From Romanomermis culicivorax (lineage: Eukaryota > Nematoda > Enoplea > Mermithida > Mermithidae), in assembly GCA_963922205.1 (NCBI GenBank), contig CAWUHX010000236.1, positions 310,001-374,000 of the forward strand: DNA of 64,000 bases, given 5' to 3'. The first letter of the stretch is position 1; every line of letters starts with the position of its first letter. The notes beneath the pieces are model-generated. The model did no database searches and was not told the origin of the DNA. It was given only the letters and a program-made list of their open reading frames with translations. The translations under genes and the position numbers were made by a program. This document shows positions 13,690 through 37,013 of this stretch, one piece after another.

Positions 13690-13698
13690 TGTCAATGA
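13690..13698. repeat. Left target-site duplication of the giant element
   Basis: TGTCAATGA here is repeated exactly at 33,556-33,564, just outside the inverted terminal repeats (a tenth base, C, also matches on the 5' side if the boundary is moved). Nine-base duplications are characteristic of Mutator-like elements. Confidence 0.85.
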
Positions 13699-14085
13699 GG
13701 GCATAACTATAGAATCGGGGACCCGTACTTTGTACAGCAACGGTTAAGCATATAGGCATTTAGTAAAGGGGGCGTGATTAAATATCGGCCAGTCTGGTTC
13801 TATATTTGGGTATAACTAAAACCCAGATCGGGTCCACGGATCCGGATCCGGATCGGGTGCCTAAAACCCGGATCACCACGGATCGGCGGATCGGGGTTTT
13901 TTCTCCTTAAACCATGGTTTTAGGTGCCTGAAACCCAGATCACGACGGATCAGGGCGGATCAGTCCGGCGATCCGGATCCGTGGAAAATACGCCTAAAAC
14001 CCGGATTTCCATCACAGATCACCCCCGACAGATCGAGATCCAGTGTATTAATTTTTGATCGGGATCAAGATTTTTTGAGTGATCC
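13699..14085 (+). repeat. Left terminal inverted repeat of the giant element
   Basis: About 380 bases match the inverse of two right-end blocks, 33,460-33,555 and about 31,310-31,580. Matched words include TTAAGCATATAGGCATTTAG, GATCGGGTGCCTAAAACCCG, ACCATGGTTTTAGGT and GGAAAATACGCCTAAAACCC. Divergence is moderate (scattered substitutions and 1-2 base indels), which suggests an old insertion. Confidence 0.85.
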
Positions 14086-14094
14086 ATGGCGAAG

Positions 14095-14880
14095 TGTAGT
14101 CATGCGTGACTAAAACTCAGATTGGCTACTCATGGATCACTTCATTTTCAAACTCAAAAACATCGAAAATCCTTCGGGAACTTGTTTGCTCTACTCACTA
14201 ATGTCAGGAGAACACATTGAAACCAAAACTTTTAAATTTTAAAATTTTTGAAATTTTTTCAAATTGAAAAAAAATTAAATTTTAAAAAAATCAAATTAGA
14301 AATGCCCTGCATGCTTGAAAATGTAGGAAAATAAGTTTCCGAAACCCTAAATGCAAATTTTGACTTTAAAAAATGAGTGATCCATGGTGAAGTGATCCAG
14401 GTTTTAGTCAGGACTAAAACCCGGATTGGCTACTCAGGGATCACTTCATTTTCATACTCAAAAACATCGAAAATCCTTCAGGAACTTGTTTGCTCTACTC
14501 ACTAAGGTCAGGGGAACACTTTGTAACCAAAATTTTGAAATTTTAAAATTTTTTAGAAAAAATTCAAATTTTTTTATAATCAATTTAGAAATGTCCGGCA
14601 TGCTTAAAAACGTAGGTAAATAAGTTTCCGAAACTCTAAACCCAAATTTTGACTTTAAAAAATGAGTGATCTGTGGTGAAGTAATCCAGGTTTTAATCGT
14701 GCATGACTAAAACCCAGAACAGCTACTTAGGGATCACTTCATTTTTAAACTCAAAAACATCGAAAATCCTTTGGCAACTTGTTTGCTCTACTCACTAATA
14801 TCAAGAGAACACCTTGAAACCAAAATTTTGAAATTTTAAAATTTTTAAAATTTTCCTAAATTTTGAAAAAAAAATTTTTT
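14095..14880 (+). repeat. Three subterminal tandem units of ~300 bp
   Basis: Units begin at about 14,106, 14,411 and 14,706 with GACTAAAACYC, then a GGCTACTCA/CAGCTACTTA word, then GGGATCACTTCATTTT, ACATCGAAAATCCTT and TTGTTTGCTCTACTCACTAA. Inverted copies occur at 26,340-26,770. Subterminal repeats of this kind often hold transposase binding sites. Here they also contain a variant of the CAGCTACYCA word that spreads through the element. Confidence 0.8.
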
Positions 14881-14881
14881 T

Positions 14882-15745
14882 TCAAAACCAATTCAGAAAA
14901 AACAATTTACTCTCAAAATCATTAAATATACATCCATAAATAGACAAACAAATTCTTATGCCATGGGATATGGCGTAATTTGCATACCAATAATGCCAGT
15001 TGTCCATAAAATTGGGTAGCTGTAAATCGTTCTTAAAAATGTTTGATTTCCAATTTCGACAAACAACACCCTGATTGGCATCCAACGGGTGTACGAAACA
15101 ATTTCTAATTGCTGTTAAAAATGTAACTGTAATGGAATATGTATCAACTGTCATGGAAAAAATCTAACTGTGATGGGAAATACAGAAAATAAAGAAAAAA
15201 ATTGTATAACATGTCTCATTTAATACTACTTACTGACTCGCATTTCGTCGTAATTTTGCAGCGTGTTCGAAATTATGCTGAAAATGTGGTTATGGGGTCT
15301 CTGTTGTACGTCTGAAACAACAATTTCAGCCCAACTGGCAACATAGGTGGACAGGGGTGCCATGTACACGTAGCATTGATTTTCAACCGAAATTGGCAAT
15401 ACAATGTGATGAAATTCATTGAATAAATGTTTGCCTATGCCAACGGTCAGTGCATATTGCGTCGACATCATTTCTAAAACCAGACAGATAAATGCAACTG
15501 TGAAATTTGTAAATGATTAAAATAAATCATTCTGTTTTACTTTTAACCAACAACATTTCGTGTTGGTTGCCTATGCAAGGCCAAGTGGCTTCAAACAGAA
15601 GGGATATTTCATTGCCCGCTGCATCGAGTATGGAACGATGACTAATACACCTAAACATTAACATTTCATTGAATGGAACAAAATTACAAAGTGCACTGAA
15701 ATATACTAAAATAAATTTAAGGTTATGAACATATTGAATCAATCA
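14882..15745 (-). pseudogene. 3' exons downstream of the helicase motifs, unrecognised
   Basis: Three open stretches lie on the minus strand below helicase motif VI: 15,527-15,740, 15,226-15,471 and 14,882-15,154. They have protein-like composition (for example FVPFNEMLMFRCISHRSI and FHHIVLPISVENQCYVYM) and probable GT-AG junctions between them, so they probably form the C-terminal part of the helicase gene or a short third gene. No domain is recognised. The FHHIVLPISVEN phrase faintly recalls the histidine strand of Ulp1-type peptidases that some transposons carry, but the catalytic Asp/Gln/Cys are not evident, so I do not assign it. Confidence 0.4.
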
Positions 15746-15839
15746 TGTCTTACCATTTAATTAATTTATGCCAATGTTGTCGTCCCTCTGTGTTGATTTG
15801 ATCTTTGTTAATGTTGAAACACATTCCTGTTTCCAATGA

Positions 15840-18800
15840 TGGAAACATCATAGCGTTGCCAACGATAATAAGCAAGCATCGAGCTCAGCTAATTGCCACA
15901 TTTAAGCATTTAAAATTTTCCAAAAATCCGATGATCAGATATTGATTTGACCACACAATGTCGTAGATTACTATGTTGGATTCTTGTCCCTGTAAAAATC
16001 GTTTACCAACATAAGTATTTGATTGTGATTGAAGTAGTTATCCTAATTTACTACCTAAAAACCATCTACAGTGCCTATTCAAATTTTATGTAGATCCACA
16101 ATGAATAATTCCCTGCTTGAGTAGCTGTGGTTCGACAAATATATGCAATTTAAGATGGCTTCGCAAGCTTTGGCGATTTTAGCTCATAGTTGTTTCACCT
16201 GTGTGCTATACGACATTATAATGATGATGTGGTCACTGCACATTTTGTGTTGTCCAATTAAAGAAGCAGCCAGGTTGATACAAGCAATGGCTTCGCCTAT
16301 ATTTTGCATTGATCTGGAATTTTTGTCAACTGATTCTTCTGTTGCTATATGAATCCAAGCGATAGAGTAGCCAGTCATCATTGTCAGAAACGACTCTGGA
16401 AGTGGGAGAATGTGATCTTCTATAACTGAAATGAGCAAATGTAAAATATTATTCATACTAACATTTAAAACATTCTCCTTTTACTGAGGCACATTGTTAC
16501 CTTTTTTAGTACATTTTTGTACCCGATTGCCGTACATCAAATCACTGACTATGCTCCCTATAACTGAGTGCATTTGGTATTGTTGGTTCAATAACATGTA
16601 CGGAATATGCATGTTGTACAATCGCTTGAACAGTGTATGTCTGAATCCCATTCGTTCTGCTTCTCTGGAAGTCACACATGGTGCTAGTTGACATGGATCA
16701 CCTAAAAGGTGACCTGAAAGAGGAGTGAATGTTGGTTAAAAATTAGGTTGAACAATAGTTGGAAACACAAAAATCAAAGCAAAACATAGCACTTCCTAGA
16801 AAAATATTTGAAAGTTACTTACTCTTCCACTTATGTGAAGTCTTGTAATTGGAATTAAGGTGGTTGGTTCAGTTTCCTGGGCAGCTTCGTCAATCAATAC
16901 CAGTTTCAAAAAAGACATTTTTAAGGGGGCATCCACTGCTCCATTGCAAGTCGTAAAGATTATAGGATATTTGCAATTGAGTAGCTGTTTTTCGTATTTG
17001 AATAGGCAAGCATCTGCCTTTTTGTCCTCTTCTTTCATCAGTGGTGTCTGTTGTTGAACACCATACTTCATTTCGATGCATTGCCCCCAGTTTGGTTTGC
17101 TGATGTTAAAAATTTGTGGTTAAAATAAAAATTGGAAAAAATAATCTATTTTAAAACAATGAAACAATTGTATATTAAAATGTTTCTAATTGTTACCAAA
17201 CTGCCAAATTTTCCAGCTTCATTGCTATGGCTCCCATTGTGTAAAGTCGAATATCAACATCCGGCTGATAATACTTAGCTCAGCTGGTAAGGCGCACGAT
17301 GTTGTTATGAATGCCTTCTCTTTCATTGCCTGCATTTTCAACACTCTTCAAAAGTGCTTGTATTATATTGTCTATGGCAGTGTTTGAAGGCGCTGTTATC
17401 AATATTTTGTGACCTTCTTGTATGGCAAATGCTGGTCTGATAATACAAGTAGCTGTAGACGTTTTTCCCATTCCAGGGGGGGGGCCTGTACAAACAAGTT
17501 TAGTTTGAGTATTGAAAGAAGTTTTGGTGTACTTGTAAACTGTGAATCTAGATATCTAGCTACTTGTTTTATTGAAATATAATTCGTTTCTGAAACGTGA
17601 ATGGCGTTTTTTTGAGACGTGTTCAGTTTGCAAGAGTTGAACACATCATTGCGATTTGCGGCAACATCGTAATATTTACAAGTAGCTGTTGGATCGTGAA
17701 ATTTTCCACGAATCAGTAGATGGCGAATGCTTTGCTAATCTGTGGTGCCATTTCATTCAGAGGTCTGAGCAGCATTCCTGAGGGTTTGTAAATATACAAA
17801 TTGCCCATCACTTTTTCTTTCAATTTTAACCGCTACATTGCGGTGTTGGAGTCTACCATGCTCAAGTGCTTTATGGTGTTGAGGCAGTTTAGTGTTCTAA
17901 ATAAACAATGGTGTTCAACACTAATACGATCGAACAATCAAAACTCGTTTAATGTTAATAGTAGTAATTAGATACACAAATACCTTTGCATCGCCATCTC
18001 ATCTCCTTTCCAAAGGACGTTGCACTTTTTGTGGCCTGGTTGGCGACTTAATTCGACAAATTTTTCCAAAGCATTGGCTGCATCTTGATCCCATTCCAGT
18101 TCATCATCTGCCTCATCTTGATCTTCAGCATCAGGGTCAAATGATGCTTGTTTCAATGCCATCCACTCTCCCAACTTGTTTATTCGAAACATTAGGATTT
18201 TGACAGATACTTTTTTGCTTTTATCTAAAAATAATTGCTCAGAACAGTTTTAATTAAATTTAGTTCTGCATATTTACTCACTATCAGATATATTGAGTAG
18301 CCTTGCGTCGCAATATGCATCCATTTCATACCACTTGCCATCTCCTCCTAGCTCCAAAATCGTCCATTGAATCTTCTGGTTTGTTCGAATGACTTGCATA
18401 TTAATTGGAATAAGAACCGAAAAGTAACAAGTTAAAAACACATGATTCTCGCAATTGGGTAGCTGTCCAGTGAAGTTCAATTTTTCTGTAGTGTATGTAG
18501 GCGGATCTAGCAAGTAGTCAATTGACTGAAAGTGTTTGCTGAATGCCAACAACATTTTATCAGTATCATTCGCTTGTTGATTTATCCAGTGTAAAAATGT
18601 ATCGTAGTATTCATTCAGTGAATGATACCTTAAAACGTAGATGTAAGTAATTTAAAAAAAATTTCATAATCTGTTTGTAAACTGGGCATGCTTTTAATTC
18701 TATCTTGTATGTGAAGCATGGAAAGAAATTCCTGAAAAACAATGCTGGCTATCCGTTCATACTACAAAGTAACAGTGACTTACCCAGCTTTCTTGCATGG

Positions 18801-18970
18801 TTTTTCAACTTCGTATGATTCAACTGTTTGGTCCACAAATGCACCGAATCCAGTATAATTGAAACTGCATTTCACATTGTTATCATCATAGGAGGAAGTA
18901 TTGAGCGCAATTTGTATGGTGGGTTCTTTGGGTTTGTGGCTTTCCTACAGCATCTAATTCATCTATCTCA
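15840..18970 (-). pseudogene. Upf1-like SF1 helicase gene of the giant element (decayed)
   Basis: All superfamily-1 helicase motifs of the Upf1 group can be read in order on the minus strand. These are Q motif SQKNAI (17.6 kb), Walker A GMGKT after a run of nine C (17.47 kb), motif Ia ILITAPSNTAIDNI (17.4 kb), motif II LVLIDEAAQETEP (16.9 kb), motif III GHLLGDPCQLAP (16.7 kb), motif IV LLNQQYQMHS (16.6 kb), a SYSTQVKQL segment (16.2 kb), and motifs V-VI GQESNIVIYD...NVAIS-stop-ARCLLIIVGNA (15.9 kb). Upstream exons at 17,968-18,215, 18,274-18,640 and 18,790-18,960 encode an acidic, unassigned N-terminal region. Two in-frame TGA codons (17,280-17,282 and 15,885-15,887) and frameshifts near 17,710, 17,470 and 18,930 break it. 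Upf1-type helicases unwind RNA or DNA 5'-to-3'. A role in transposition or RNA handling for this element is inference. Confidence 0.8.
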
Positions 18971-20565
18971 TCCTCCACTTTGATGTTGATCAGAGGCTAT
19001 AATTGATTAATTATTTTAAACTTATTACAAAGATGTGGTATTGGGAGAAAAATTACTACAAAAGGCGCTGTCTCATCAATGTGTGAAATAGTAGACAAGT
19101 AAAACAAAAAGCCACCGCTTCCTCAAAATCAAGGAAAGCAATAAAGCATAAAGCTTATCCTTGTAAATGCGTGAGTAGCTGTATAACAAGTTGTTTCAAC
19201 ATAATCTAGTAAAAAATTGATGGTTCACAGAAATTAACATTCCCAAGATTAAATAATGGTTACCTATAGTTTATGAACACAAGGTCTTGGCTTCCCGTTT
19301 TGCAGAAGGAATGGGTTGGGCCCTGGGCGATGGTGTTGTTAAAAAACTTCATGGAAATATGTGTCACATTGTGAATAAATTGATATACAGTAAACTTTTT
19401 ATTCTAATCATTTAATTTCAGGGCTCAGATACAACTTGTTTGTCATAACACAAAACACATATGTAACCTAAATATAGTTTTCTTTGTGTTATTTGATACG
19501 CAGTCGTAACATTGTCATGCGACATTTATATGTAAGTCTTATGAAGTTTCATGGTTTTATGAATTGACAATGAATACTGTTTGTCCCTTATACTGATTGT
19601 CCATAAAGTATTCGGAAAACAAACAATATTTTACTACTCAAATCCCCCATTTGCAACTAGTGCAAATTAAATTGCATCAGTGCCCAACCATGGGGACACG
19701 GACCCTGAGGATATGCATGGCCATGTGCAAAACTTAAAGAACTTGAAAAAACATGCAAAAGGTAAAACTAATATACAGAAAAAAAATATACACAACCATG
19801 ACTAGAAAACACAGATCGATAGAGACAGAATTGAGAAATTTAAGATTTTTTTTTCTATATTTTAAATTTTTTTTGGTTTTTAATTTTTTTGGGGGGTTTT
19901 TATAAATGTGCATAATATAACATGAACAAAATTAAATAAAGTAAAAGTAAAGTTTAACAAATTGGAAAAAAATTAAAATTAATTTGACATGAAATTTAAA
20001 TAAAATATAATAAAAACAAAATGAATTAAAACAAATGTTCACATAACTTAAAATGAAATGAACTTGTAGAAAATACAATATAGTAATGAGTAATGTACAT
20101 ATATATACAAAGTGTAGTTTTTTCCAAACAATTGGTAATATATACATTCAAAATAGATGTAAAGGTATGGTCAATTTGAAATTGTAAAACGTTTCTGTTT
20201 TCCTTCAAATGCTTCTAGAGAATGAAAGTGAATAGCAAGTAGTATTTCTAATTTTCACATTTTTCCTGTATACTTTCTGCTATATTTGTATAGGGCTGGA
20301 AACTTGTGAGCATACTGACCTCACTAGATGGTTTGAAAAAAACTACATACTTTAACAATACATAGTAACTAGAAATTAACCATAAACACATACACACACA
20401 ATCACAATAAAAGTAACACTCACAGTAATATTATGAAACACAATAACATACATTATACTTTATAAGCATTAGAAATTAAATGTGGTATTGAAGGTGGACC
20501 TACCTCAACCAGGAACCCAACCGTTAGAATTCCACCAATGTACTCTGTTATATAAACTTACCCCA
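18971..20565. other. Noncoding interior of the element
   Basis: AT-rich and probably intronic between the 5' exons and helicase exons of the minus-strand gene. It has one copy of the polar 10-mer (19,172-19,181), an A/T-only stretch at 19,840-20,060, a copy of the dispersed GGAAACTTGTGAGCATACTG repeat at 20,180-20,330, and a CA-rich patch at 20,380-20,410. No coding exon is recognised. Confidence 0.5.
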
Positions 20566-21297
20566 ATTTGCCAGCAAACTCCGCGTACACCTCGAATTTG
20601 GGTAATGTCAATGTCTGCGCCAACAGCCATGTTTCCAAATCTAGGTGGTGGATTATCTATTTATGCAAAGCCTTCACCGATTCCATTAATAATTACATCC
20701 TTGAACAGATCGGCATTAACATGAATATGTTCATTGATCATTCGATCATCGGCATTTTCTTCGATGCATGGATGATTTCCACCACGTTGCATATTCTGAG
20801 GTCTAACTCCTATTTGTCGATTGTCCCACCGTGGATGTTGTTGTCTTCATCAAGCTGCACATTCAATAGACAAAAAAATTATTTAATAAGGTGTACGGTT
20901 GACCCACATTATCTTTTAACATAACAACTTTAAAAAGCAAAACAATATTCATAATTTTTATTTTATGTAATGTTTTACTAATTTTGCAAACATAAAATTA
21001 AAAATTAGAATCTATTTACCTCTATGGGGTCCTCTAATTAGAATCAGTGGTAAATCATCGTCATTTAGCAGTTGTTCATACACTTCCACATTGAGTAGCT
21101 GTTCTTCTCCCGGGGGGGGGGGGGGTATGTTCCCCTTGGTTTATTTCCCCAATCAGATTATCTGCATCAACGACACCATCTTCATTGTCCTTGAGTAGCT
21201 GTCTGGTGGGTCTATGCAAAGGACATGGATGATGTGGGGCATTGACGACTCTTCCTGTTTGTATTCTAGTGCTTATTGATACATGAATGCCAGGCAT
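20566..21297 (-). pseudogene. 5' exons of the minus-strand (helicase-side) gene
   Basis: A minus-strand ATG at 21,297 opens MPGIHVSISTRIQTGRVVNA and runs to a GTAAAT donor at about 21,020. It passes through a run of 13 C (21,113-21,125 on the plus strand as G) that disturbs the frame. The next exon, roughly 20,566-20,830, encodes a segment including NRQIGVRPQNMQRGG, CIEENADDRMINEHIHV and ADIDITQIRGVRGVCWQIG before a GTAAGT donor at about 20,566. A TAA interrupts it at 20,661-20,663. No known domain is recognised. Orientation and exon spacing suggest it is the N-terminal part of the helicase gene, but it could be a separate gene. Confidence 0.5.
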
Positions 21298-22284
21298 TTT
21301 GAGAGAAAAAAGGTTTGTTGAGTAATTCTTCTTTTAAGAAAGAATGATATACTTTTCTATGGAGGGACATCATAAGTGCAAAGTCCATGTTTGTGCGTAA
21401 AAGTAACCATTCCTACTCTAATGTTTACTGGTCACTCTTTCAATTGTGGACAATGGCATGAAGCATAAATTGATTATGTGTTGAGCAATGAGGAATGGTA
21501 TGAATCTTCGATTTGAATCTTAGGTTATGTATGAAATTGTATGTAGCAATACAGTTTTGCTAGCTTGTGTTGAAACAGCAGCAAAATCCAGGCGAAAAAC
21601 CTAAAGTGGCTTAAATGTGAGTATAAAATTTACCTACAAACACAATTGTGACTTTTAGGCAACGTTATGCTCAAGTTTGTACATATATTACATTTCAATT
21701 TGCAGGGTGCTGTTTACTGTAAAAGTGTTTTACCCGCCATGTTTTATATTGCGCAGATACAATTTTTTGCCCGCAGCTTTATGCGTCGCAAATCCAACAA
21801 ACAAGAAATGACACCTAAAAGTAAGATTGACAACACATAGTAGTTATTGTTTAAGCCTTCATTGCTTAACTTTGTCAATGTATGGATTGTTTTTTATTTT
21901 TTCCACAGGATTGCCATTAGCAAATGAATGAAAGTGTATTGCTTCACAATTACCTAAGATGATCAACAGCTACTCAACTCACCCGCCAACATACAAAAAT
22001 AAAAATTCAACAATTTATTGCTTTAACATCAGCTACTCAGATGTCAACAATACTTCATTGTTGATCTAGTTTACCCACCAACTTACAAAATTCAGCATTT
22101 CAAATTTTGTCAGTCTCTCTACACCATCAGCTACTCAATCGTCAACAATAATTGACCTTCCATAATGTGGCTTACAGCTACTCATTTAATTGACCTTCCA
22201 CAAAGTCCCTTACAGCTACTCATTCAACGGAGTCAGACAAAAACCAATATGACTCCAATGATGACTTAGCCAACTCCAGGTCTA
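21298..22284. promoter_or_regulatory. Divergent spacer between helicase and transposase genes
   Basis: This ~1-kb region separates the minus-strand ATG at 21,297 from the plus-strand ATG at 22,285. It probably contains both promoters. Its right third (21,960-22,225) holds five plus-oriented copies of CAGCTACTCA within 260 bases, the densest cluster in the element; two of them (22,165-22,190 and 22,195-22,225) sit in a tandemly repeated ACCTTCCA...CTTACAGCTACTCATT phrase. No canonical TATA box stands out. That the cluster regulates expression or binds transposase is inference. Confidence 0.45.
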
Positions 22285-25200
22285 TTGTCACAAGTTGAAA
22301 ATCCAAAAGATGATCTTTTGAAGATAGACTCAATTACAACATCATCCAAAACTGATGAAATGCCAGCTTCAGGATGTTCAATTCCCATACTGACAAACAA
22401 ACAATCAAGATTAGAACCAAGGGATTTAGATAAGTTAATAGGTAAACAAATTATTTATTTGTCCTAAACTTACATCTTAAATGAAATCCTAGTTGTTTGT
22501 ATATTTTTCAACTGTATCTAAGGATATATTTCAGCTTTAGCTAATGCAGAGCAATTAATCAACAAACCTTCACCATTCCTAAAGGGAGGAGATGTTTACC
22601 TGTTTCTGTACTCCCGCAAAGAAGATAGTAATATACTTGTCAACTTATTTATGTGTCCATGAACCTTTAGTAATATTTGTACTTCCTCATAGAATTGTTT
22701 CTTTGCGATTGTTAGAATTGGATAAATGATGGAGTCCGAAAAATTCCAAGGTCTGATCCAAGGTACTCCACGACACACTACTTCATGGTGTGCAACTGAA
22801 ATACAAAATCAAAGAAAAACTTCAAAAGAATAGAATATAGGCAAATAAATCCAACTTCGGACAATCATCTATTCATAGGAGTAGTCCACTATGTTGACGA
22901 TGAGAAAGATGGTGTCAAATGAAAGCACCTCAATGCCAACACTGATAAGGTATTTATTCAAAACGCTTCTGTAATCAAGAAGTTGGTTGAAGTCAAACTG
23001 AAACGAGATCCAAACCTAATGCCTTCTCAATTGTATGAGAAAATTAAACTGCCAATCCTGCTCAACCAGGCCTGGAGGCTGTTTTAAATGGCAGAGATAG
23101 AAAACAGGTGGATATATTTAATTTGGTGTTATAAATGTTAATGTGCTACAAATGAAAATTACTGTTTTAGATGGCCAACTTCAAATAGGCCATGCTAAAC
23201 AAATTCTGGTCCATGAAGGACGCCATTTACAATTTAAACACCTTCATTCTCGAGATCAAATGTCAGTTCATAATGAGCATCGAACAAACAGCTCAAGACT
23301 TTCTAGTATCGTGTATGTTGCTGGAAACGCCAGAGATCATTAACGAATTAATAATGGAATATCCAAGTGAGCCGTTTGTTGTTCTTTATGACACTACTTT
23401 TGAATTGGGCGATTTACATTTATGTCAGCTGCAGTTTATCACCAAAAGAGCCTTGTTGGCAACTCAGTTTTTCCACTAGGCATCTTAATACAGGAAAAAG
23501 ATTTAAGGAAAACCATTGTGGTTTTATCCAGCAAATTTTTCGACAGCTACCCATTTGTATTACGAATGGGAAAATCAAAGTCGTCATAATTACTGACTGC
23601 GAATTCGATTTCCGAAATTTGACGCCAAATACCATGTGCAATTATTGCTGGCGTCATTTAGTAGAAAATGTTACTCAAAAAATTACAGAATTATATCAGA
23701 AAGATAATGACTTGTGTGTCGGGGTAGTGAACAATTTATATTCCATTCTAAAATCCAATTCCGAAAAACTAGCAGCCAAAGAAGCAGAACTAAGTGAAAG
23801 TTGGCCTGAAAAGTTTAAAAACTATTTCTTTTCGTCCATTGCATCAGCTATTCAAATGAGTCGAAAATGGGTGTTGGAACCGCTTGGGTTATACTCCAGC
23901 TTCTCAGGTATACTATATACACATGTCCAGATTAAGTGCACTCATACTTCAAAGACAAACTTTTAATTATATAACTTTAGTTCAAAACTATACTATAATC
24001 AAATTATGTAATTCCTTACATTTTCTATAATTTAATTACATTATACATTTTAGGCATAATGACCAACACCAGCCAAACTTTCAACAAAGTCTTCAAGACC
24101 TGGACTTCCTGGAGAGAAATGCCCATTGACATGGCCCTTCTGGCTTTCTACTGCTTTTTCTGATATTACAACATCGAATATCATGGTGCCAAATATGGAC
24201 TGGGGAATTTCAATCTCAACCCCCACATTCCACTAAGGCCTGCAAATGAAAGGCAGCAAAGAGAAACAATCTAACCCGGAAAAATTTTACAATACTGTTG
24301 ATTTGGCCAAGTTTCCATACAGCTACCCAAGTAGGTAGAGCCAAAATCACATCCTGCTGAAAATGCTGATTCAAATTTCAGAATTGGCCAGTTTTTAGTC
24401 GAAAATGGAAAGATGGTGCACAATACCCTATCAAGGGCAAAAATTCATAATGTCATTATTGACATGGTTGCCTATATTTGAATTACTTTACAATTTTTTC
24501 CAGTGCTTAAACGTAACTGAAAATGGTAATGTCTACCTAGTTCAATTCAACCCTACGAGCTGCAGTTGCGGTGACAAAGCATGCGCCCACTTGATAGCTG
24601 CTCGTATGTCCTGTAATTTACCTGTCCACGTAAAGGCCAAGAGAAACAACACTTCTTTGTGACGGGCAGACAAATGAAAGATAAGCGAGTCCAAATTGGG
24701 ATGTAAACATCCTCACAAAGACGACTTCAAGAACATCAAGCCAAAAGTTACTGATATTGAATTTGATGACGAGGAGCCGGAAACTCAAGTAGAAACAGAT
24801 TTGTGATTATGATGTCAAAATTGGGAAGCCTGCTACAAACCATATGGATTCGGACAGTTCACGTGATACTCAAGTGGAAACGACTACTTGTGATTACGAC
24901 TCCCAAATTGACCTTCCAGAAAAAAATAATAGCGATTTTACGAATTGTCCTGAGCATACAGTAGAAACAAAAAATTGTGCCTATGATGCCCATCAATTAA
25001 TTATAAAACAACTTGAGTGAGTGATAACAATTTATTTGTCATCATGGTGGTGATCTTTCAAATGTACATATTTTTCAGACGAATAGAAGAAAAATGCCAA
25101 CTGTACGACAATGTTTATGCATCTCCGCCGAACTATAACTCGCAGGCTACACTTTTGGTAGATTCACAGTCCCAAAACAGTGAAGCCCTAAATATAAAAA

Positions 25201-27040
25201 GGTAAACAAGCATGAACTACACTCATCACATCTAACAAACTAAAAATTCCAACCAATTTTTTCTAAATTGACATTTTCTGTTTAAGAGAAGAGATCAATG
25301 TTACTTGGGCAACAATTATAATTGATTTGCAAATTACATCCTGCAATGAAATTCAAGATGAATTACCAAACTCAGAGGAAATACCCGAATTGCAACCTTA
25401 ACCAGTAATAATAACTATAGTTTCATTCAAATACTTGTGAGTTAATTGAATGTTTGCATATAGATTGACTTACAAATGTTGATAAGCAACAACTTGCCAA
25501 ACTTGGAAGCCGAAGAAGATGAGGACATTATCGGTAGCCTTAGTGATGTTGATGATGATGCTTTATTGGGGGAAATGTTAAAACCAAAAGGTCCAAAACC
25601 GACATTCTGCGAATGTCATGTCGATAAAACTGTAAATCAAATGCTGGAATGCCATGCACAAATTGAAGAAATATGCAGAGTATGGTACCATCCAGAATGT
25701 GAAAATATATTCAAAGTTTATTTTTCAGGTAGAAAGAATTGAAAGAAGGCCGAAAATAAATTGTATTGGGAATGCATGCACTGCTTCATTGGGGACTATT
25801 TCCAAAATTCACTGCAAATAGATACTGGTCTAGCGAAATACCAATTACAGAATACTTGTACAATCGATCCATGTTTAACATCATTCTACATTAAAGCTAA
25901 ATTTTGTCCAAAATTCCTGACACAGGTAATTTAATTACTATATTACGTAACATTCATAAATTATTTTAAAATATTATAGCTACCCATCGAATTTTCAATG
26001 TTGAAAAATAGTTTGAACTTGGCGCTTCAAAACAAATTAGAGGAAGTTGCATTGGAATGGGTCAACTATTTAGGCTTCCACAAGAATGCTGTACTGCAAA
26101 AAAACAAAAGAAGGACAGCATGGGCACAAACTTATTCGATTTGTTCAGTAGTGTCGACAAATATTTCTTGCCTCATGTCAGTAGCATGCACACTCTGCAA
26201 TGCCATAGCGAGTGTTCCATAGCCAAATGCCCAATGAAAATTATTACAATGGAAATTACAGGCTATGCTGTGTAAGTCTTTTGTTTTTTAATATGAATTC
26301 AGTTGCAATTTTTGGACATCTTATCTTTTAAAAACGTGTGTTCCTAGTTTAAAAATAAGAGTAAAAAACCAGTTTAAAAAATTAAAAGAAATTTTTTTTT
26401 TATTTTAAAAAATTTTAAAAATTTTAAAATTTCAAAATTTTGGTTTTAAAGTGTTCCCCTGACGTTAGTGAGTAGAGCAAACAAGTTGCCAAATGATTTT
26501 CGATGTTTTTGAGTTTGAAAATAAAGTGATCCCTGAGTAGCTGATCCAGGTTTCAGGTGTGCACAACTAAAACCTGGATAACTTCCCCACAGATCACTTA
26601 TTTTTTAAAGCTAAAATTTGCATTTAGGGTTTCAGAAACTTAGGTTTTTAAGCACGCCGGACATTTCTAAATTGTTTTTTGAAAAATTCAAATTTTTTTA
26701 AAAAAATTTTAAAATTTTTCAAAATTTCAAAATTTTGTTTCAAAGCGAGTTTGAAAATGGAGTGATCCGTGGGAAACACCAACTTTACAGTTTATGTTCA
26801 TGTAGGCTAAAAGGAAAAACAATGGAAAATGTTGTGAGTAAACAACTGCATAAACATAAGAAAATATGTGAACAAAGGCATGAAAATGGGTTGGTCAAAT
26901 GTCTGGGAATAAGAACGCATTTCCCACCTACCTTCACAATGCAACAGCTACTCATGCTGCTGCCAGTATACTTATGCAATGCGCCATTCAATAACATTTT
27001 TGATTTGCTGACTGAGTTGATGTTTAATCCACGATGGTAA
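22285..27040 (+). pseudogene. Mutator-like transposase with CG-1-like, SWIM and PHD domains (decayed)
   Basis: Plus-strand exons in order: 22,285-22,441 (MSQVENPKDDLLKIDS...); 22,533 to about 22,640 and 22,710-22,960, a CG-1/CAMTA-like DNA-binding region (GGDVYLFLYSRKED ... WINDGVRKIPRSDPR ... FKRIEYR ... FIGVVHYVDDE); and 23,170-23,910, the RNase H-fold core with D in VVLYDTTFELGD, D in VVIITDCEFDF and a CWRHLVENV C..H motif. Then come 24,055-24,250 with GIMTNTSQTFNKVFKTW, where relatives have Glu at the Gln; 24,500-24,660 with a SWIM finger (CSCGDKACAH); 25,475-25,740 with a PHD-like finger (CECH...WYHPEC); and further exons at 25,998-26,270 and about 26,790-27,040. Stops at 22,797, 22,920 and 23,186 and a frameshift near 23,500 inactivate it. 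The family cuts and pastes DNA through long TIRs. The MULE call is strong but by eye. Confidence 0.8.
26340..26770 (-). repeat. Inverted copies of the left subterminal units
   Basis: These are inverse matches to the units at 14,095-14,880: TTAGTGAGTAGAGCAAACAA, CGATGTTTTTGAGTTTGAAA and AAAGTGATCCCTGAGTAG, and a partial second unit at 26,690-26,770. They fall between the last transposase exons. They form a large internal inverted repeat with the left copies. Confidence 0.75.
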
Positions 27041-27830
27041 AAACAAACTGGTGTTGGGTTTTGGTTTTTTTTCACTGTACATTTTTCAGCTACCATTTTT
27101 TGTTAGTTATTGTTCATCTCAATGATCACTTCACATGCATCCTTATTCGACTGGGGACTTCGACAAAAGAGTATTTGTTCTGCGATGATTTGCAAGATGC
27201 AATGTAAGGGGTAACACAAGGTAGTAGAAGAGAGCATCTTCTACAATATGCCTTGTATTTTTTATACTTTTAAGTAATATTTTTAATTGTTTGTTTTAAC
27301 TTTGTATATTTAAAGTTTACATATTCTGTTGAATTTCTCATGTTGTTCTGTATTTACCAGTTTTCATACCTGGTGCAATTTTTCCTGTGTTAGTTTTAAA
27401 ATTTTTATCACCATTTTTATATTTTATCTCACCAGTTCTAAATTCTATCTTATCTGTTATTCATTGTTTAAATTTTATTGCTTTTAATGTATCATATTTG
27501 TATTGTAATTGTTCATTATGCATCTTATTTTCTTCTTCTCTTTTGGTTTTATTTGGTTTTATTTGCTTTAACTTCTTATTCCTTCTTTTTTGAGTTTTGA
27601 CTTTTTTAGTCTTTTTGTTGGCTTTTCTTACTTATTTTTCTTTTGTTTTTAGTTACTTTTATTTTCTTTTACTTTCAATTTTTTTCATAATTGTTTTACT
27701 TTACTTATATTATATTTGTTGTATATAGTTGTTTGTTTGGATGAAAATAAAAATGGGTACATATACATACTAATAGGAGTCCTGTGATTGAATGAAAATT
27801 AGATAATCCATCTGTCTTCCAACTTGTTTT
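27041..27830. other. T-rich 3' flank of the transposase gene
   Basis: The plus strand is strongly pyrimidine-rich from 27,240 to 27,760 (TTTTATTTTC-type low complexity). AAAATAAAAATGG near 27,745 could act as a polyadenylation region. Open frames here are compositional artefacts. Confidence 0.4.
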
Positions 27831-30800
27831 ATGAGGTTTCTGACTATATGCATTAACTCCCTTTCAACCCGTAGCTTTTATGTTTCATACGGAAACACGG
27901 ATATATAAAAAAATTCCATTTATATTTGTTTGTGTGGTTTCATGACAGTTTAATCAGAAGTTGAACTGCCGTTAGACTGCATTTTTACCATTTTTTCAAT
28001 TTAATTTTTATTTTAATCAAAATTACAAAAATAGAACAGGCTAAACATTCTATCAATGATTAAACTACCATTCTATCATACTAGCTAAAAAGCAATTACG
28101 TATATATCTTCAGCTTTCCTGTTGAAACATATAAATAACAGATTGGAAAACTATTTTAGCATTGACAACCAAAAGTATTGATTTGGTGACTGCACTTGCT
28201 TATTTTTGATCTGGTTTCTGACACACATTTTCTATTTGCCTATCATACTCTGCCAACCCATAAATGTGATGTTTCAACAGTTTTTCCATCTTTATATACA
28301 TGTGAGAGATATGGCCTCGTCAGATTTTGAACAAACCAAAAAGGAATTTTCTATTGATGACTTAACTACTGTTCTATCAGTTTATTTTATTGATTACGGC
28401 AAGATTGAATTTATGTTTAAACCTTGCGGTTGTTCAATCCTTTTGCAGTTTAGGTTAAACTTTTATTCCATCTAATCCTGTAGACATGATGTTTTGATAC
28501 TTTTCTCATCTTTATATACATGTTGCTGATATGGGCTCATTAGGATTTGAATTTACAAAAAAGGATTATAGAAGAATTAATGACTTTTCTATCAAAAATG
28601 ACCCTTAATGGTTTACCTAACTGTTTCGTTGGTCATTCAAACCTGGAGGCGGTTCAATCCTTTTGCAGTTTTACACAATAAAAATTTATTTATTCAATTT
28701 TGAACATTTGCTTTTATTCTGTATTAACCCGTACATACAATGTTTCAACACTTCCCTCTTTTTTATATACATGTGAGACATATATATTCATCAGGATTTG
28801 AATAGACCAAACGGGAATATAAAATCATCCACAAAACCAGTTCATGATTGCTCATATAAATATATACACCAATCCATATCCGGATGCGTACACTAAATGC
28901 AATAAAACAATTTTCTTTCTGTCATCCTGTGGATATAATGTTTCAATGATTTTCTCTTCTTTATGTACACCTGCACAATAGCCTTCATTATGAATTGAAC
29001 CAACCCAATACAAATCCCATAACTAAACAAGAATACAACCTCAGAGGCTTAACTACCGTTCTATCAGATTGTTCAACGGGATTATTGAATTCACTTCACA
29101 GTTGTTGTTCAATTGTTTTACAAAATTTTCTTTTTCAAAGTTCTTTGACAAACTTTTCAAGATGACCGGATCATGTCCGATCAATGGACAAACTAAAAAG
29201 ACATGCTAAATATTTGTTCTAACCTGTACAAATAATGTTTTGATCAAATCCAGTAGATAGATATACAAGTGAAGATTAAGATAAACAGGACAGTAAGACA
29301 GCCCCTGTCCGTTATGCTGATGTTAAACCACATGCATCTGATAAGCAATCAAATGCCTTATTTACGACTGACTACTGTTTTTCTAAAACTTTTAATGATA
29401 ATATAAATATGTTTTGTAACTGTTTTCAACATATTACAGTGAGTCTAGGTCGGATTTGAAGTAAAAATTGGTCATTCAAACCTGAAGGTGGTTCAATCCT
29501 TTTGCAGTTTTAAAGAATAAAAATTCATTTATTCCATTTTGAACATGTAGGCTAGATTTTTGATTAAATACGTGCTTTTATTCTGTATTAACCCGTACAT
29601 ACAATGTTTCAACACTTCTCTCTTTCTTATATACATGTGAGACATATATATTCATCAGGATTTGAATAGACCAAACAGGAATATAAAATCATCGACTTAA
29701 CTATTGTTCTATCAATTTTCCAATTTTTGAATTTGCCGCTTATGGCAATTAACATAACTTTTCCTGGTGGTCATTCAATCCTTTTACATTTTTTCCTAAT
29801 TTTTTTTATACACATTTATAAAGTCTTGGAATTAAAAACCAAGGCTTTGTTCAATGACTAATCTGACCATTTCTTTAATCCTGTCAGGCAGAAAACTATG
29901 CAGATTCTTGATTGCATAATAGAGCGAATTTACTGGCAAACATTTTAATTGCACTAATCATTAAAATTGACAATTCGACAAAAGATAAATGTAAAAAATC
30001 AAAACAAATTCATAATAATTGTAAAAATTGTGAAAATTCATCAACCTATTGACACACAAATACCAAATGGCTGGGTAAACATATATGGTTATTTGCAATA
30101 AAACCAGTTAATGTTTGCTCAAATAACATTATAGATGGATCCAGATCCATACAAAAAATGCAATAAAAACAGTTTATGTATGCTCATATAAAAACTATAT
30201 ACACTGATCCAGATCGGTAAAAAAATTTTCTAATACACATGCATTTACTTTCTGTTATCCCATGGACATGATGTTTCAATGCTTTTCTCTTCTTTATGTA
30301 CATGTGCACAATAGACTTCATTATGAATTGAACAAACTGAATTAGAATCCCATAACTAAAGAAGAACACAATATCAAAGGCTTAACTACTGTTCTATCAA
30401 ATATTCAACATTGTATCGATGTTATTCGGGATTATTGAATTCACTTCGCGGTTGTTGTTCAATCATTTTACAAAATTTTCTTTTTCAAAATTCTTTTACA
30501 AACTTTTCAAGGTGACCAGACCATGGTGTATCAATGGACAAACCAAAAAGACGAGTGAAGATTAAGACAGTAAGACAGCCCATGTCGGTTATACTGACAT
30601 TAAACCACATGCATCTGTTTTTGTAAAACTTTTGATAATAATATGTTTTGTAACTGTTTTCAACATATTACAGTGAGTCTGGGTCGGATTTTAAGTAAAA
30701 ATAATTCATGAATAGTAAACGGATAATGTAGGATCTAACGGATTGGTTCGTACTAAAAAGACATGCTAAATTTTTGTTCTAACCCATATAAATAATATTT

Positions 30801-30900
30801 CAATGAATTGCAGCAGATACATATACCAAACATAAATTAAGTTGTCAAACAGTACAACATTATATTAGTTATTCTGGAGTTAAACCACACTGATATGAGG
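27830..30900. repeat. Degenerate ~3-kb tandem array
   Basis: At least eight diverged copies of one block occur, at about 28,240, 28,470, 28,720, 28,920, 29,225, 29,590, 30,250 and 30,780. The shared core is a CC-GTA-A-A-ATGTTTCAA-R-TTYTCTYTTYTTTATRTACATG phrase followed by a GAATTGAAC/GATTTGAA phrase. Larger blocks are duplicated: 28,680-28,830 with 29,520-29,700, and 28,900-29,460 with 30,220-30,710 (shared CAATCCTTTTGCAGTTTTA, GAATTCACTTC and TTTCAAGRTGACC phrases). No coding capacity is present. It looks like expanded subterminal repeat DNA of the transposon. Confidence 0.65.
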
Positions 30901-30984
30901 AACAATCTTGGCTGGACTACTGTTTTTGAATTTTTTCCCTATAAAAGTATGAAATACTCATGATGACATATAAAAAAAAATTTA

Positions 30985-31300
30985 AAACAAACTGATCCAG
31001 ATCAAAAATATTGATCTGGATCAAAATCTGAATATGTGGCGTGAATTTACTCATCAGGACGAAAAAATTTGAAAAAATTTATATAGGTGATAAATTGAAA
31101 AAAATGATCCGGATCAAAAATATTGATCTGTATCAAAATCTGAATATGTGGCGTGAAAATACTCATCACAACGAAAAAATTCGAAAAAATTTAATCTAGG
31201 TGAAAATTAAAAAAAATTGATGCGGATCAAAAATATTGATCTGCATCAAAATCTGAATATGTGGCGTGAAAATACTCATCAGGACGAAAAAATTTGATCC
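30985..31300 (+). repeat. Three tandem ~110-125-bp units
   Basis: Three units each contain GATCAAAAATATTGATCTG, then ATCAAAATCTGAATATGTGG, CGTGAA and CATCASRACGAAAAAATT. They abut the right inner TIR, whose GATCCGGATC words they share. Confidence 0.8.
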
Positions 31301-31580
31301 AGATCAAATTTTTTGATCCGGATCAAAAAATGTGGATCCGGATCAAAAATTAATACATTGGAACCTGATCCGTAGGGGGTGATCCATGATGAAAATCGGG
31401 GTTTTAGGCGTATTTTCCATAGACCCGGATCACTGGACTGATCCGCCGTGATCCGGGTTTTAGGTACCTAAAACCATGGTATACGGAGAAAAACCCCCAA
31501 TCCGCCAATCCGTGGTGATCCGGGTTTTAGGCACCCGATCCGGATCCATGGAACCGATCCGGGATTTAGTCATACCCTCT

Positions 31581-33457
31581 ATTTTTAGCGGAATTTTTCC
31601 TTTGCATAACCTAACACTTTTTTCAGGCTCTGTATAGATTATGAAATATAATTATAACTAAATTATGAAATTTAATTAATTTTGATTCGCCACAAAACAA
31701 ATTCAAATTTTCTATTTTCAAATGCAGATTTATACTGTCTTTTCCAGGATAATTCTGCAAACTCTTTTAGACCTTAAAATTTTTTTCCTAATGAATAAAG
31801 CTAAATAATGTATTGTAAAGCTCTGATGTCTTGCAGGCGGAAACGGTTAGTCATGACGTGGGAAAGGAAAAAACAAAAAGTATAAAAAGAAAAGCATCTG
31901 CGTTGCGTGCAGTATTCTTTGAAATGAAAAACCGTTCAGTCATTTTTTCTGATCAAATGGATATTTTTACGTCCCTTGATCTTTATTTACCTTTGTATCA
32001 AACATTCTTTTTTAAATCTATAACCTTTCCTCTTACATCTGATATAGCAATGGCATACAATCGGCTCCCTCTTAATTGGCAATACAGTACACAAAACGTG
32101 GGCATTGTATCCTCACTTTCCAACTTTTCCATTAGTTGTATAGTTTAAATGCAGAAAATACCCATTCCTTTGGTAAAAAATTGCAAAACTCGTCCATGAA
32201 CAAAATGCGGCAAATTAGTATAAAATTAGTAGAAAAATTTTTAGATTGATCGTGCTAAATACAGTCCAGATCACAAGTAACGTGACATGTCCACAAGCGT
32301 ATGGCAAGCGACCTGCTTGCCAAGTGCTTGTAGATTGCTTGTCATTTTGTTGCTTGCCACAAGCAACTCACAAGTGCTTGCCAAGCAACCCACAAGCATT
32401 TCGCAAGCACTCCACAAGCATTGCACAAGTAATCCGCAAGCGTTTCACAAGCGATGCACAACAGACACTCTTTTACGACCTTATTCTTCACGTTTAGGGA
32501 CGCCTTTGTCTTTTCCGACAAAAGAATTCCTTAGAAGGGATACATCGAAATGGATTACTGTAGACGTGAAATATGTTGATGATATAAAAACAATCGGTCT
32601 GCTACAGTAAGGCTTTCATAAAATGCTTATAAATCGGAAAAATGAAAACAGCATTGTAGTCAAAATTTTTGGCAGAGCTTGTCTGATGGAATTTTTTGTA
32701 AAAGAATTGTTACGGGCTGGTTGAGAATGCTCACAAATTTTTAGTCCAATTTATTTTAGCAGACAATTTCAAAAATATAAAATAGCACTTGCTTTTTCGC
32801 TGTAATTAATTATTAACAAAAAGTTTACTTTACTTTGTTTTTATGCATGTACAGTAGGGAGCATATTTTGAAAAACGTATGATATATTTTTCTCTTCGAA
32901 AAAAGTCGAAAACAAAAAATGTCTGCTGTTGCTTTCAAAAAGCCGCATGTTATGAACGTCCTCAAGGTACATCGACAGACTTCCAATAAATAATTGCCTT
33001 CATAAATATATTCCAACTGACATTCACACTTACAGCTGCAAGTGCTTGACAAGCGACTCACAAGCACTTGGCAAGCAATTCACAAGCACTTGGCAAGCAG
33101 GTCACAAGCACTTGGCAAGCAACCTACAAGCACTCTACAGCGACTCACAAGCGCTTGGACAAGCAACCGACAAGCGTTCCACAAGCAATCCACTAGTGCT
33201 GCCAAATTGGCGATTGTGACAAGCAACCCACAGGCAAAAACACACGTTACTTGTGATCTGGACTGTAGGCGTTTGGAAACTGGACGCACTTTTGTTTAAG
33301 GTTACCATAATTATCTGTCTTAAGAGGCATTACAAGACATTCCTCGGTCGTTCAACTGCTTTTTAAACGCGGCTCTATGGTGTATGAATCTGAGACATAA
33401 TAAAAAAACCGTCGTCGTTAAAAAGTGAGGTACACAAAGAAAAGAGTGCTAAAAATA
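31581..33457. mobile_element. 1.88-kb insertion in the right TIR, TA-flanked
   Basis: The insertion begins TATTTTTAGC and ends GCTAAAAATA, so the ends are short inverted repeats bounded by TA dinucleotides. Removing it joins the two TIR blocks into a continuous match with the left TIR. It encodes no recognised protein; a 105-codon frame at 31,831-32,148 is unassigned. A smaller TIR element lies within it. Confidence 0.65.
32262..33265. mobile_element. 1.0-kb Tc1/mariner-type nonautonomous element
   Basis: It has a perfect 23-base TIR: starting at 32,262 with CAGTCCAGATCACAAGTAAC and inverted at 33,243-33,265, bounded by TA on both sides (32,260-32,261 and 33,266-33,267). TA duplication and a CAGT start are hallmarks of Tc1/mariner elements. 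It has no transposase. Just inside each end lie arrays of CACAAGCACTTGGCAAGCAA-like repeats (32,290-32,460 and 33,035-33,240), both in the same orientation. The middle includes an inverted copy of the dispersed GTGAGCAT repeat near 32,720-32,750. Confidence 0.85.
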
Positions 33458-33555
33458 GAACCAGAACCGCCGATATTTAACCACGCCCTTTACTAAATGC
33501 CTATATGCTTAACCGTTGCTGTAGAAAGTACGGGTCCCCGATTCTATAGTTATAC

Positions 33556-33564
33556 TGTCAATGA
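33556..33564. repeat. Right target-site duplication of the giant element
   Basis: Exact copy of the TGTCAATGA at 13,690-13,698, immediately outside the right TIR. Confidence 0.85.
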
Positions 33565-33880
33565 AATTTTTCAAAGTTCGACATCGATTCATTCGCATTA
33601 AGATGCAAGTGAGAGTAAATGTAGAGAAGAACATCGCTAAACTGTGACCTTGCCATCCCCAATAAGTATAGTGCGCTGTCGTTTTACGATCTACAGCGCG
33701 AGAAATTCAGAAATTAAGCTTCAATTATAAGGTTGAAATAATTTACATATCAAGTGTTACACGACGATAAGTTTTCTTTTAGAAATCCGCTTTTACTGTA
33801 GACTGAATCGACTGAATTCTACGGATTCTTTTGGTGCATTTTAGGAGGTCCAAATCTCAAAATTTTCCGGCGCTTCGCGC
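33565..33880. other. Spacer ending in a GCGAAGC hairpin repeat
   Basis: Unique AT-rich DNA to about 33,830. It is followed by an inverted copy of the dispersed hairpin repeat: TTTTAGGAGGTCCAAATCTC, AAAATTTTCC and GGCGCTTCGCGCC at 33,870-33,881. Confidence 0.6.
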
Positions 33881-35954: not shown

Positions 35955-37013
35955 CTTTGATCAGGGGTGACTTTGATCAGAGTATGGCATTTGATAACTA
36001 TTTGAGATCAGCAGGTCATTTTTGCTGCGTAGACAACCTCACAGCAACTGAATTTCCTGAGTTATAGAGAAAAAATGAGAAGTCTGGCTATTGTAACTTG
36101 TTTTGTCTAGAGCGCTGGGAAAATTTAGATTTTGAGACTTCTAAAACATTAGAAAATTTATTTTTTAATCTATTTCTTGTGCAACTATCGTATATATTAA
36201 TCTTATTTTTTTCATCATTTGGCAGCGTGGCATTTTGTCTCGGATTCTGATATCAGCTATTCCGGCGGTAGAAAAGAATTGTATTTTGACATTCTAAAAC
36301 GCTGGAGAATGAACCTTTTCAACCTTTATTCTGTGATGAAAGATCTTATTTTTCTGTGAATTCAATGAGTTTTCAGTCAGGTATCAAAAATTACCAATCA
36401 AGCTACCAATCAAGAATTTAGATTCTTCATTCTTCAACCGGCAAAAGCTCCGGTCAATGTCCTCTGTTGAGCTGATGATGTTTTAAGTATTTCCTAAATG
36501 CAAAAAGTTCATGTTTATGAAAGTCGAAATCATTGAGGTCGACAAAAATATTTTGTGAAAAGAATCGAAAAACGTCTTGATTTTGTCATTGAATAAGTAC
36601 AAGTTCAAATATTCATTCAAAATACGTTATGTTTAAATGCTATGGGCATATACTAGGAAGAAATTTTTTAACCATGCACTAGAAATGATAAAATTATAAA
36701 TCATTTGAAATTTCACGTTAAGCACTAGAAAATTTTTAGTATTTCCCTTAAAAATGTATATAATGCATTTTCGAACAGGAAACTTTATAGCTTAATCATA
36801 AGAGCCATCAGGCTCCAGGTTGCACTGTGCAACTTGGCCGAAAAAATTTGATTGCACAGCCAAAAATTTGGTTGCTGTGTGCTAAAATAAAAAAGCCTGC
36901 ACTAAACGCACGTCTAAAATGACGTCATATGTTTATTCAATGTTTCTCAAAGGACGTCCAAGCTAAACACGTTTAAAGGTAGACGAAAAATTTAGACGGG
37001 CTGGGTGGGACTA
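35955..37013. other. Repeat-derived noncoding DNA
   Basis: Fragments of the hairpin-repeat family occur at 36,110-36,170 and 36,240-36,320 (CTGGGAAAATTTAGATTTTG; TTTTGACATTCTAAAACGCT). A near-perfect palindrome GTTGCACTGTGCAAC lies at 36,821-36,835. Positions 36,895-37,000 contain ACGTCTAAA-type words that recur inverted at 38,950-39,060, suggesting an older element into which the next one inserted. Confidence 0.5.

Follow-up and report, generated by a model that had tools for sequence, protein, structure and literature searches.

A decayed 19.9-kb Mutator-like element with a divergent UPF1-like helicase gene in the nematode Romanomermis culicivorax

The DNA considered here (the window, 64,000 nucleotides in full) comes from the mermithid nematode Romanomermis culicivorax (assembly GCA_963922205.1, contig CAWUHX010000236.1, positions 310,001 to 374,000). 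It holds, at its positions 13,699-33,555, a Mutator-like element (MULE) with two divergently placed genes, a Mutator-type transposase on the plus strand and a UPF1-like helicase on the minus strand. MULE transposases excise their element and insert it with a duplication of 8-11 bp. The length of this insertion, ~19.9 kb, is set by its terminal inverted repeats (TIRs) and a perfect target-site duplication. The duplicated word, TGTCAATGA, stands at 13,690-13,698 on the left and 33,556-33,564 on the right, identical at 9 of 9 bp and within the range of 8-11 bp given for MULEs in the accessible part of PMC6446971. The TIRs are long, as is usual in MULEs, with an outer part of 107 bp and an inner part of ~270 bp (271 bp on the left). 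Their outer parts (13,701-13,807, plus strand; 33,451-33,555, minus strand) are 93% identical over 105 aligned bases, or 90% when flanking bases are included, and the inner parts (13,808-14,078, plus strand; 31,323-31,577, minus strand) are 83% identical as inverted copies. The initial annotation had described inverted ends with a 9-bp duplication; the duplication and the long TIRs stand, but the left TIR starts at 13,701, two extra bases (GG) after the left duplication, and a sequence of ~1.87 kb (31,578-33,450) interrupts the right TIR; part of that sequence is a TA-flanked inverted-repeat element at 32,260-33,267. The TIR end sequence is ATAACTATAGAATCGGGGACCCGTACTTT; a 29-bp piece of the TIR end is confined, within the window, to the two extremities of the element (0.00 expected). 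The insertion is a genuine Mutator-type copy, with next to no room for doubt.

The transposase gene is read in exon pieces spanning 22,249-27,204 of the plus strand, the last of them (26,822-27,204) assigned tentatively. A search with the joined protein returned a single match, P0122 (E 5.6e-35, 25% identity, 97% of the query region), and the unpatched raw DNA was itself matched by relatives in tblastn (P0126 at 22,704-23,912, E 4e-18; P0122, E 1e-12); both results mark the gene as a homologue of the MULE DDE transposases. A profile made of P0122 and the window protein gathered 116 proteins, P0122 among them, many of which are fragments. Counted by hand from their listing, the domains of these relatives are MULE (PF10551) in 63, CG-1 (PF03859) in 12, PHD in 7 and Peptidase_C48 in 3. 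The organism-named clusters are from Mytilus (five), Pinctada (two), Ruditapes, Crassostrea and Cyamophila (one each), so that nine of the ten are from bivalves; Cyamophila is a psyllid.

What does the window protein itself contain? Along the plus strand there follow one another a stretch that aligns to the CG-1 domain region of relatives (22,534-22,930), the DDE catalytic core (23,192-24,265), a SWIM-type cysteine/histidine pattern placed by alignment to relatives (24,561-24,590) and a PHD-like cysteine/histidine pattern visible in the sequence (25,608-25,784). CG-1 is the DNA-binding domain of CAMTA factors. The SWIM pattern scores 10.6 bits in Pfam (cut-off 19.6) and the PHD pattern 12.5 bits (cut-off 24), values that are unsurprising because this copy is decayed and divergent. 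The catalytic D, D and E are invariant in 8 of 8 relatives aligned with the window protein and in 16 of 16 aligned among themselves, the two alignments overlapping by seven proteins. The window copy has the aspartates at 23,390 and 23,595 and a glutamine at 24,074 where relatives have the glutamate, which makes its triad D-D-Q. Beyond the PHD region, the coding-like pieces at 26,822-27,204 show a pattern HFTC...DD that recalls the end of a ubiquitin-specific protease, though without a family match.

The helicase gene has its best-supported exon pieces at 15,753-18,990 on the minus strand, and a possible N-terminal exon, likewise without a family match, may lie at 21,109-21,297 on the same strand. 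The joined pieces match the Pfam domains AAA_12 (2e-37) and AAA_11 (2e-28), both of which are also found in the raw frames, and these two make up the core of superfamily 1 (SF1) helicases that UPF1 has. Among proteins of known structure matched by sequence, UPF1 is the best (E 9.5e-32), followed by SMUBP-2, DNA2, SEN1 and others. The IGHMBP2 model TIGR00376 scores 154.4 bits, far from its cut-off of 348.9, and the UPF1 zinc-binding domain (PF09416) was matched neither in the minus-strand frames of 14,900-21,400 nor in the joined protein, although a split or decayed domain could escape such a scan. The best 120 of 1701 helicase matches are 27-30% identical, and their alignments, which take in 55-65% of the query, are confined to the core. 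One relative that does have the UPF1 zinc-binding domain, the Blastocystis protein P0046, is 29% identical to the window helicase over 464 positions. By its sequence the gene on the minus strand codes for an SF1 helicase that belongs to the UPF1/IGHMBP2 group but is divergent; it is not filed here as UPF1.

Both genes are broken. The helicase has five in-frame stops in 825 codons (TAG at 17,835; TGA at 17,282, 16,186, 16,081 and 15,887) and at least two frameshifts, near 17,728 and 17,480, one of which falls within nine consecutive C at Walker A; in the alignment to the structure matches, the motif VI arginine has given way to the stop at 15,887. The SF1 motifs can be read only across these two frameshifts and the stops. 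The transposase has five in-frame stops in 1045 codons (TAG at 22,267; TGA at 22,920, 24,161, 24,660 and 24,675) and at least four frameshifts, near 23,045, 23,437, 23,512 and 26,099; two more stops, TAA at 23,045 and TGA at 25,740, lie at piece borders and are not counted. The frameshift counts come from manual reading, and some of the frame changes may be unrecognised introns. With the stops and frameshifts in both genes and the catalytic change, this copy is dead; it has neither the open frame nor the intact D-D-E of an active, autonomous MULE, which concerns its activity and not its descent. The similar lesion load of the two genes fits a joint death. The initial annotation was silent on the lesions, the split TIR and the exchange of E for Q. 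Its transposase core with SWIM and PHD holds up as regards the homology, the two aspartates and the patterns, but not as regards the glutamate, and the Pfam scores stay under their thresholds; likewise, the claim that every SF1/Upf1 motif is present survives in that the motifs are visible, with the reservation that frameshifts and stops interrupt them and that one stop has replaced the motif VI arginine.

TGA makes up 8 of the 10 counted stops, or 9 of 12 with those at piece borders. Could TGA be a sense codon here? This was rejected: in the element and the left flank, reading TGA as sense gives no longer frames than reading TAA as sense, and one TGA stands where motif VI should have its arginine. 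In the right flank, TGA as sense gives a longer top frame than TAA does (327 codons versus 293) without gaining on the next ones. Loss of CpG, turning CGA into TGA, would account for the excess of TGA among the stops.

The observed/expected ratio of CpG is 0.63 in the helicase gene, 0.49 in 19,000-21,350, 0.44 between the genes, 0.55 in the transposase gene and 0.54 in the right arm. It is 1.09 and 1.12 in the flanks, 0.98 in the left TIR region and 0.94 at the right end. Taken over 14,900-31,300, the depletion is to roughly half. In overlapping 5-kb windows the ratio is 0.45-0.75 inside the element (n=30) versus 0.82-1.49 outside (n=69), and where CpG falls inside the element, TpG and CpA are correspondingly raised. 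The element also has duplicated stretches of its own (eight pairs, partly overlapping), between which 25 of 53 CpG sites are changed, compared with 179 mismatches at ~1953 other sites. This pattern of loss fits the decay of methylated CpG, and Romanomermis is described as a methylating nematode in the available portion of PMC8821070.

The two genes also have a short word in common. The element contains 16 sites of CAGCTAC[TC]CA and the rest of the window none; shuffling the element 200 times produced 0.035 sites on average and never more than one. Together with its overlapping shifts it heads the over-represented 8- to 11-mers of 14,900-28,200 (sub-terminal repeats excluded), where its exact form was observed 11 times against 0.018 expected from a Markov model. 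If a single mismatch is tolerated, the window has 21 matches, 20 of them inside the element. The sites span 15,013-26,954, and 15 of the 16 follow the orientation of the nearer gene. To the left of 21.5 kb all seven are on the minus strand, in the sense of the helicase: CAGCTACCCA at 15,013-15,022 and 18,456-18,465, and CAGCTACTCA at 16,118-16,127, 16,978-16,987, 19,172-19,181, 21,092-21,101 and 21,192-21,201. Of these, the sites at 16,118, 16,978 and 18,456 are in exon pieces, the one at 21,192 is in the possible N-terminal exon and the other three are outside the supported pieces. To the right of 21.5 kb eight of nine are on the plus strand, in the sense of the transposase. Five are CAGCTACTCA copies that lie between the divergent genes within 256 bp (21,967-22,222, starting at 21,967, 22,030, 22,128, 22,175 and 22,213), the last two in a 38-bp tandem duplication. 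CAGCTACCCA follows in exon pieces at 23,544-23,553 and 24,320-24,329, and CAGCTACTCA at 26,945-26,954 in the tentatively assigned piece. The exception, CAGCTACTCA on the minus strand at 26,534-26,543, is inside a sub-terminal repeat and runs opposite to the transposase. Outside the one cluster the density is ~1 per 0.75 kb. The coding sites are mostly, not always, in a Q-L-L or Q-L-P frame, that at 16,118-16,127 being in another.

How do these observations fit together? The best explanation is probably that this is the dead copy of a large two-gene MULE with a resident helicase. The 10-mer found with both genes, their common CpG loss, their similar lesions, the lack of ends around the helicase alone in the stretches tested and a great divergence with the motifs kept together suggest a long shared history of helicase and transposase, and the helicase was likely resident in the element before the copy died rather than a recent passenger. 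The initial annotation's reading of a Mutator-type element and, facing away from its transposase, a UPF1-like helicase gene is thus borne out by the ends, the target-site duplication and both homologies, and its view that the helicase is no passenger gains indirect backing as far as long residence goes. That the element needed the helicase functionally is a more doubtful proposition. In the proposed scheme the transposase, which groups with animal transposases of a CG-1/MULE/SWIM/PHD set, would have bound the ends of the element and moved it by MULE-type cut and paste, while the SF1 helicase, whose gene starts from this shared middle part and runs the other way, would have worked on nucleic acid of the element itself. 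Of its possible jobs, help with expression or an escape from silencing ranks first, on account of the resemblance between the gene-oriented word and the VANC system of plant MULEs. The dispersed, gene-oriented 10-mer may have served as a self-recognition tag, like the VANC motifs of plant VANDAL MULEs, a role no less doubtful than the functional need for the helicase. Situated also in exons and along two divergent genes, the 10-mers would also suit the recognition of transcripts by an RNA helicase. Later the copy would have been inactivated and would have decayed, partly through the CpG loss expected from cytosine methylation. The most far-reaching version, an animal MULE lineage with a UPF1-like helicase whose genes are marked by the oriented 10-mer, so that the helicase or a transposase domain can tell transcripts or DNA of the element from others and the element gains self-preference or evades silencing by CpG methylation, is decidedly unlikely; if true, it would be an animal counterpart of the plant VANC systems by way of a different protein.

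Is the helicase then a passenger after all, a host or foreign gene captured by the element with no part in transposition? Pack-MULEs in plants capture genes. Extra open reading frames acquired by MULEs are also known according to the accessible part of PMC6446971, and none of the 116 transposase relatives lists a helicase domain. The 27-30% identity to the listed helicases, with the motifs kept, indicates a long independent evolution under constraint, however, and a recent copy of host UPF1 was rejected on account of this divergence. The 10-mer with both genes, the common composition and the similar lesion load also speak against a passenger, although a sufficiently old capture would still fit them. 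Capture is therefore rather unlikely. Insertion of the helicase as a nested element was rejected as well: the stretches tested have no bracketing ends, and no inverted pair longer than 17 bp was found around the helicase alone (14,880-15,400 against 18,950-22,300). A different nesting would put both genes into an inner element of ~14.1-26.75 kb within a larger MULE. Sub-terminal tandem repeats (14,076-14,899, plus strand; unit ~293-298 bp, ~2.5-2.8 copies, containing CTACTCA) and their inverted counterpart (26,384-26,743, minus strand) do bracket both genes, all 16 10-mers are between 15,013 and 26,954, and a 9-bp direct word, GAGTGATCC, stands at 14,077 and 26,760. But GAGTGATCC is part of the repeat unit (it recurs near 14,375) and its adjoining sequences are not inverted copies, which makes it a poor candidate for a duplication; the arms are unequal in copy number, the interior to the right of 27.2 kb is equally CpG-depleted (0.54), and coding-like pieces, tentatively assigned, continue beyond the right arm at 26,822-27,204. 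An inner element is accordingly quite improbable.

The composition admits a reading of its own, in which the element came by horizontal transfer from a CpG-poor genome and owes nothing to methylation in its present host. The step from ~1.1 in the flanks to ~0.5 in the interior agrees with this, as does the bivalve origin of nine of the ten organism-named relatives. Yet CpG sites are far more often changed between the element's own duplicates, which points to decay after duplication (though the duplications may predate arrival), and another stretch of the window is CpG-poor too; such a transfer is unlikely. Even less can be said for the view that the 10-mer arose by chance or simply reflects a repeated peptide (Q-L-L/P). 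Several coding copies do share the Q-L-L or Q-L-P frame, but 10 of the 16 sites are outside the supported exon pieces, including the five-copy intergenic cluster and the one in the sub-terminal repeat, the coding site at 16,118-16,127 is in a different frame, and chance would have to produce 16 sites where 0.035 are expected, all of which makes this account very improbable.

A two-gene MULE with a resident helicase has points against it too. The window transposase passes no Pfam cut-off, MULE (PF10551) and CG-1 being without a match. AAA_11 and AAA_12 are listed for 0 of the 116 transposase relatives, so that no fusion is seen among them; neighbouring genes are outside that listing. There is no close helicase relative among the 120 listed of 1701 matches; had the genome of P0122 an annotated partner helicase of comparable length, a good score would be expected for it, and its absence from these 120 counts against the pairing. 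A single copy is seen. CpG depletion is not exclusive to the element, the stretch 8,001-9,500 having ratios of 0.36-0.61. Only 6 of the 16 10-mers are in exon pieces (one of these pieces tentatively assigned) and transcription of the other 10 is an assumption; the two that share the 38-bp tandem duplication mean that the sites are not all independent. Finally, a common motif and a common composition are signs of shared history, not of function.

Where does the element stand among known systems? The animal MULE transposases P0122, P0123, P0126, P0129, P0132 and P0133 align with the window transposase over CG-1, DDE and SWIM at 22-27% identity. CG-1 scores above the Pfam cut-off in P0123, P0129 and P0133 and under it in P0122 and P0126, whereas in the window protein it is aligned only, and PHD passes in P0123, P0126, P0129 and P0133. 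In P0129 and P0133 (and below threshold in P0126) an Ulp1-type Peptidase_C48 precedes the C-terminal PHD; the window transposase has its PHD-like pattern after SWIM, with no protease domain recognised. P0122-type relatives list no helicase domain, unlike the second gene of the window element. The helicase, in turn, has the SF1 core AAA_11 + AAA_12 in common with UPF1 and IGHMBP2 (SMUBP-2), and differs from them in giving no match to the zinc-binding domain and in falling far under the TIGR00376 cut-off. An N-terminal CG-1 domain in some animal MULE transposases (P0123, P0129, P0133 and others) is an observation in its own right, and a search of literature titles returned no paper on it.

Rehavkus, as described in the accessible part of PMC6446971, has a 9-bp duplication, a TIR within 26-400 bp, a PHD finger and a minisatellite before the 3' TIR. 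The window element resembles this description in its duplication and TIRs, and its PHD-like pattern may be a counterpart of the finger. The candidate for the minisatellite is a tandem array immediately inward of the right inner TIR (30,978-31,294), in which a repeat of ~112 bp recurs 2.8 times. In the VANDAL/VANC system of Arabidopsis, going by the available portions of PMC5735166 and PMC10398659, a MULE with extra genes bears an element-specific short motif in one orientation and partly in tandem; the 10-mer, confined to the element within this window and oriented with each gene, is a possible counterpart. In an anti-silencing system of the VANC type the protein that binds the motif also takes off methylation. 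A MULE-encoded protein binds this motif, which is arrayed in the same orientation, according to the portion of PMC5735166 consulted, and it is on this published definition that the comparison of the 10-mer, density included, rests. The 10-mer resembles the VANC target motifs of plant MULEs by analogy, with two differences: VANC21 motifs are chiefly non-coding in the same partial sources, against 6 of 16 10-mers in exon pieces, and the extra gene here is a helicase, no other extra domain having been recognised in the Pfam scans.

MULEs with extra open reading frames are already known; the literature searched names no helicase as one of these extra genes, which does not prove novelty. More precisely, no helicase-bearing MULE appeared in the literature searches or in the text of PMC6446971 and PMC13359780, with most subscription papers and Repbase outside their scope, and the word 'helicase' occurs 0 times in the main text of PMC6446971. 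Complete arthropod MULEs measure 1.4-10.0 kb in the consulted part of a 2026 survey, and the 19.9 kb of the present element is ~2x the longest of these. If other copies keep both genes, this would be a cut-and-paste transposon with a dedicated UPF1-family helicase, opening the question of whether it aids transposition at the level of RNA or DNA. The 10-mer, for its part, lends itself to direct testing as a possible sequence-specific self-recognition signal of an animal transposon.

An exact-match search for the TIR end in viral contigs came back empty; P0122 and two further queries found no related locus there, nor did the latter two in the collection of genome contigs. Within the window, tblastn (E 1e-3) with eight transposase relatives, two helicases and the joined helicase detected no further copy of either gene, and scans returned zero tRNAs and zero RNA families at gathering score. 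Several repeats lie in and around the element. A long direct-repeat block lies to the right of the transposase (28,229-30,826). The element within the split right TIR (32,260-33,267) is a ~1-kb inverted repeat with TA ends and perfect terminal stretches of 25 bp, and each of its arms holds an 11/22-bp CAAGC-type tandem array. In the CpG-poor stretch 8,001-9,500, the segment 8,618-8,739 is 78% identical to 20,194-20,321 of the element and related to 791-1,025. Directly to the right of the element, at 33,829-38,370, a repeat family is present in three copies of ~0.7-0.96 kb that are 75-89% identical, two of them being inverted neighbours.

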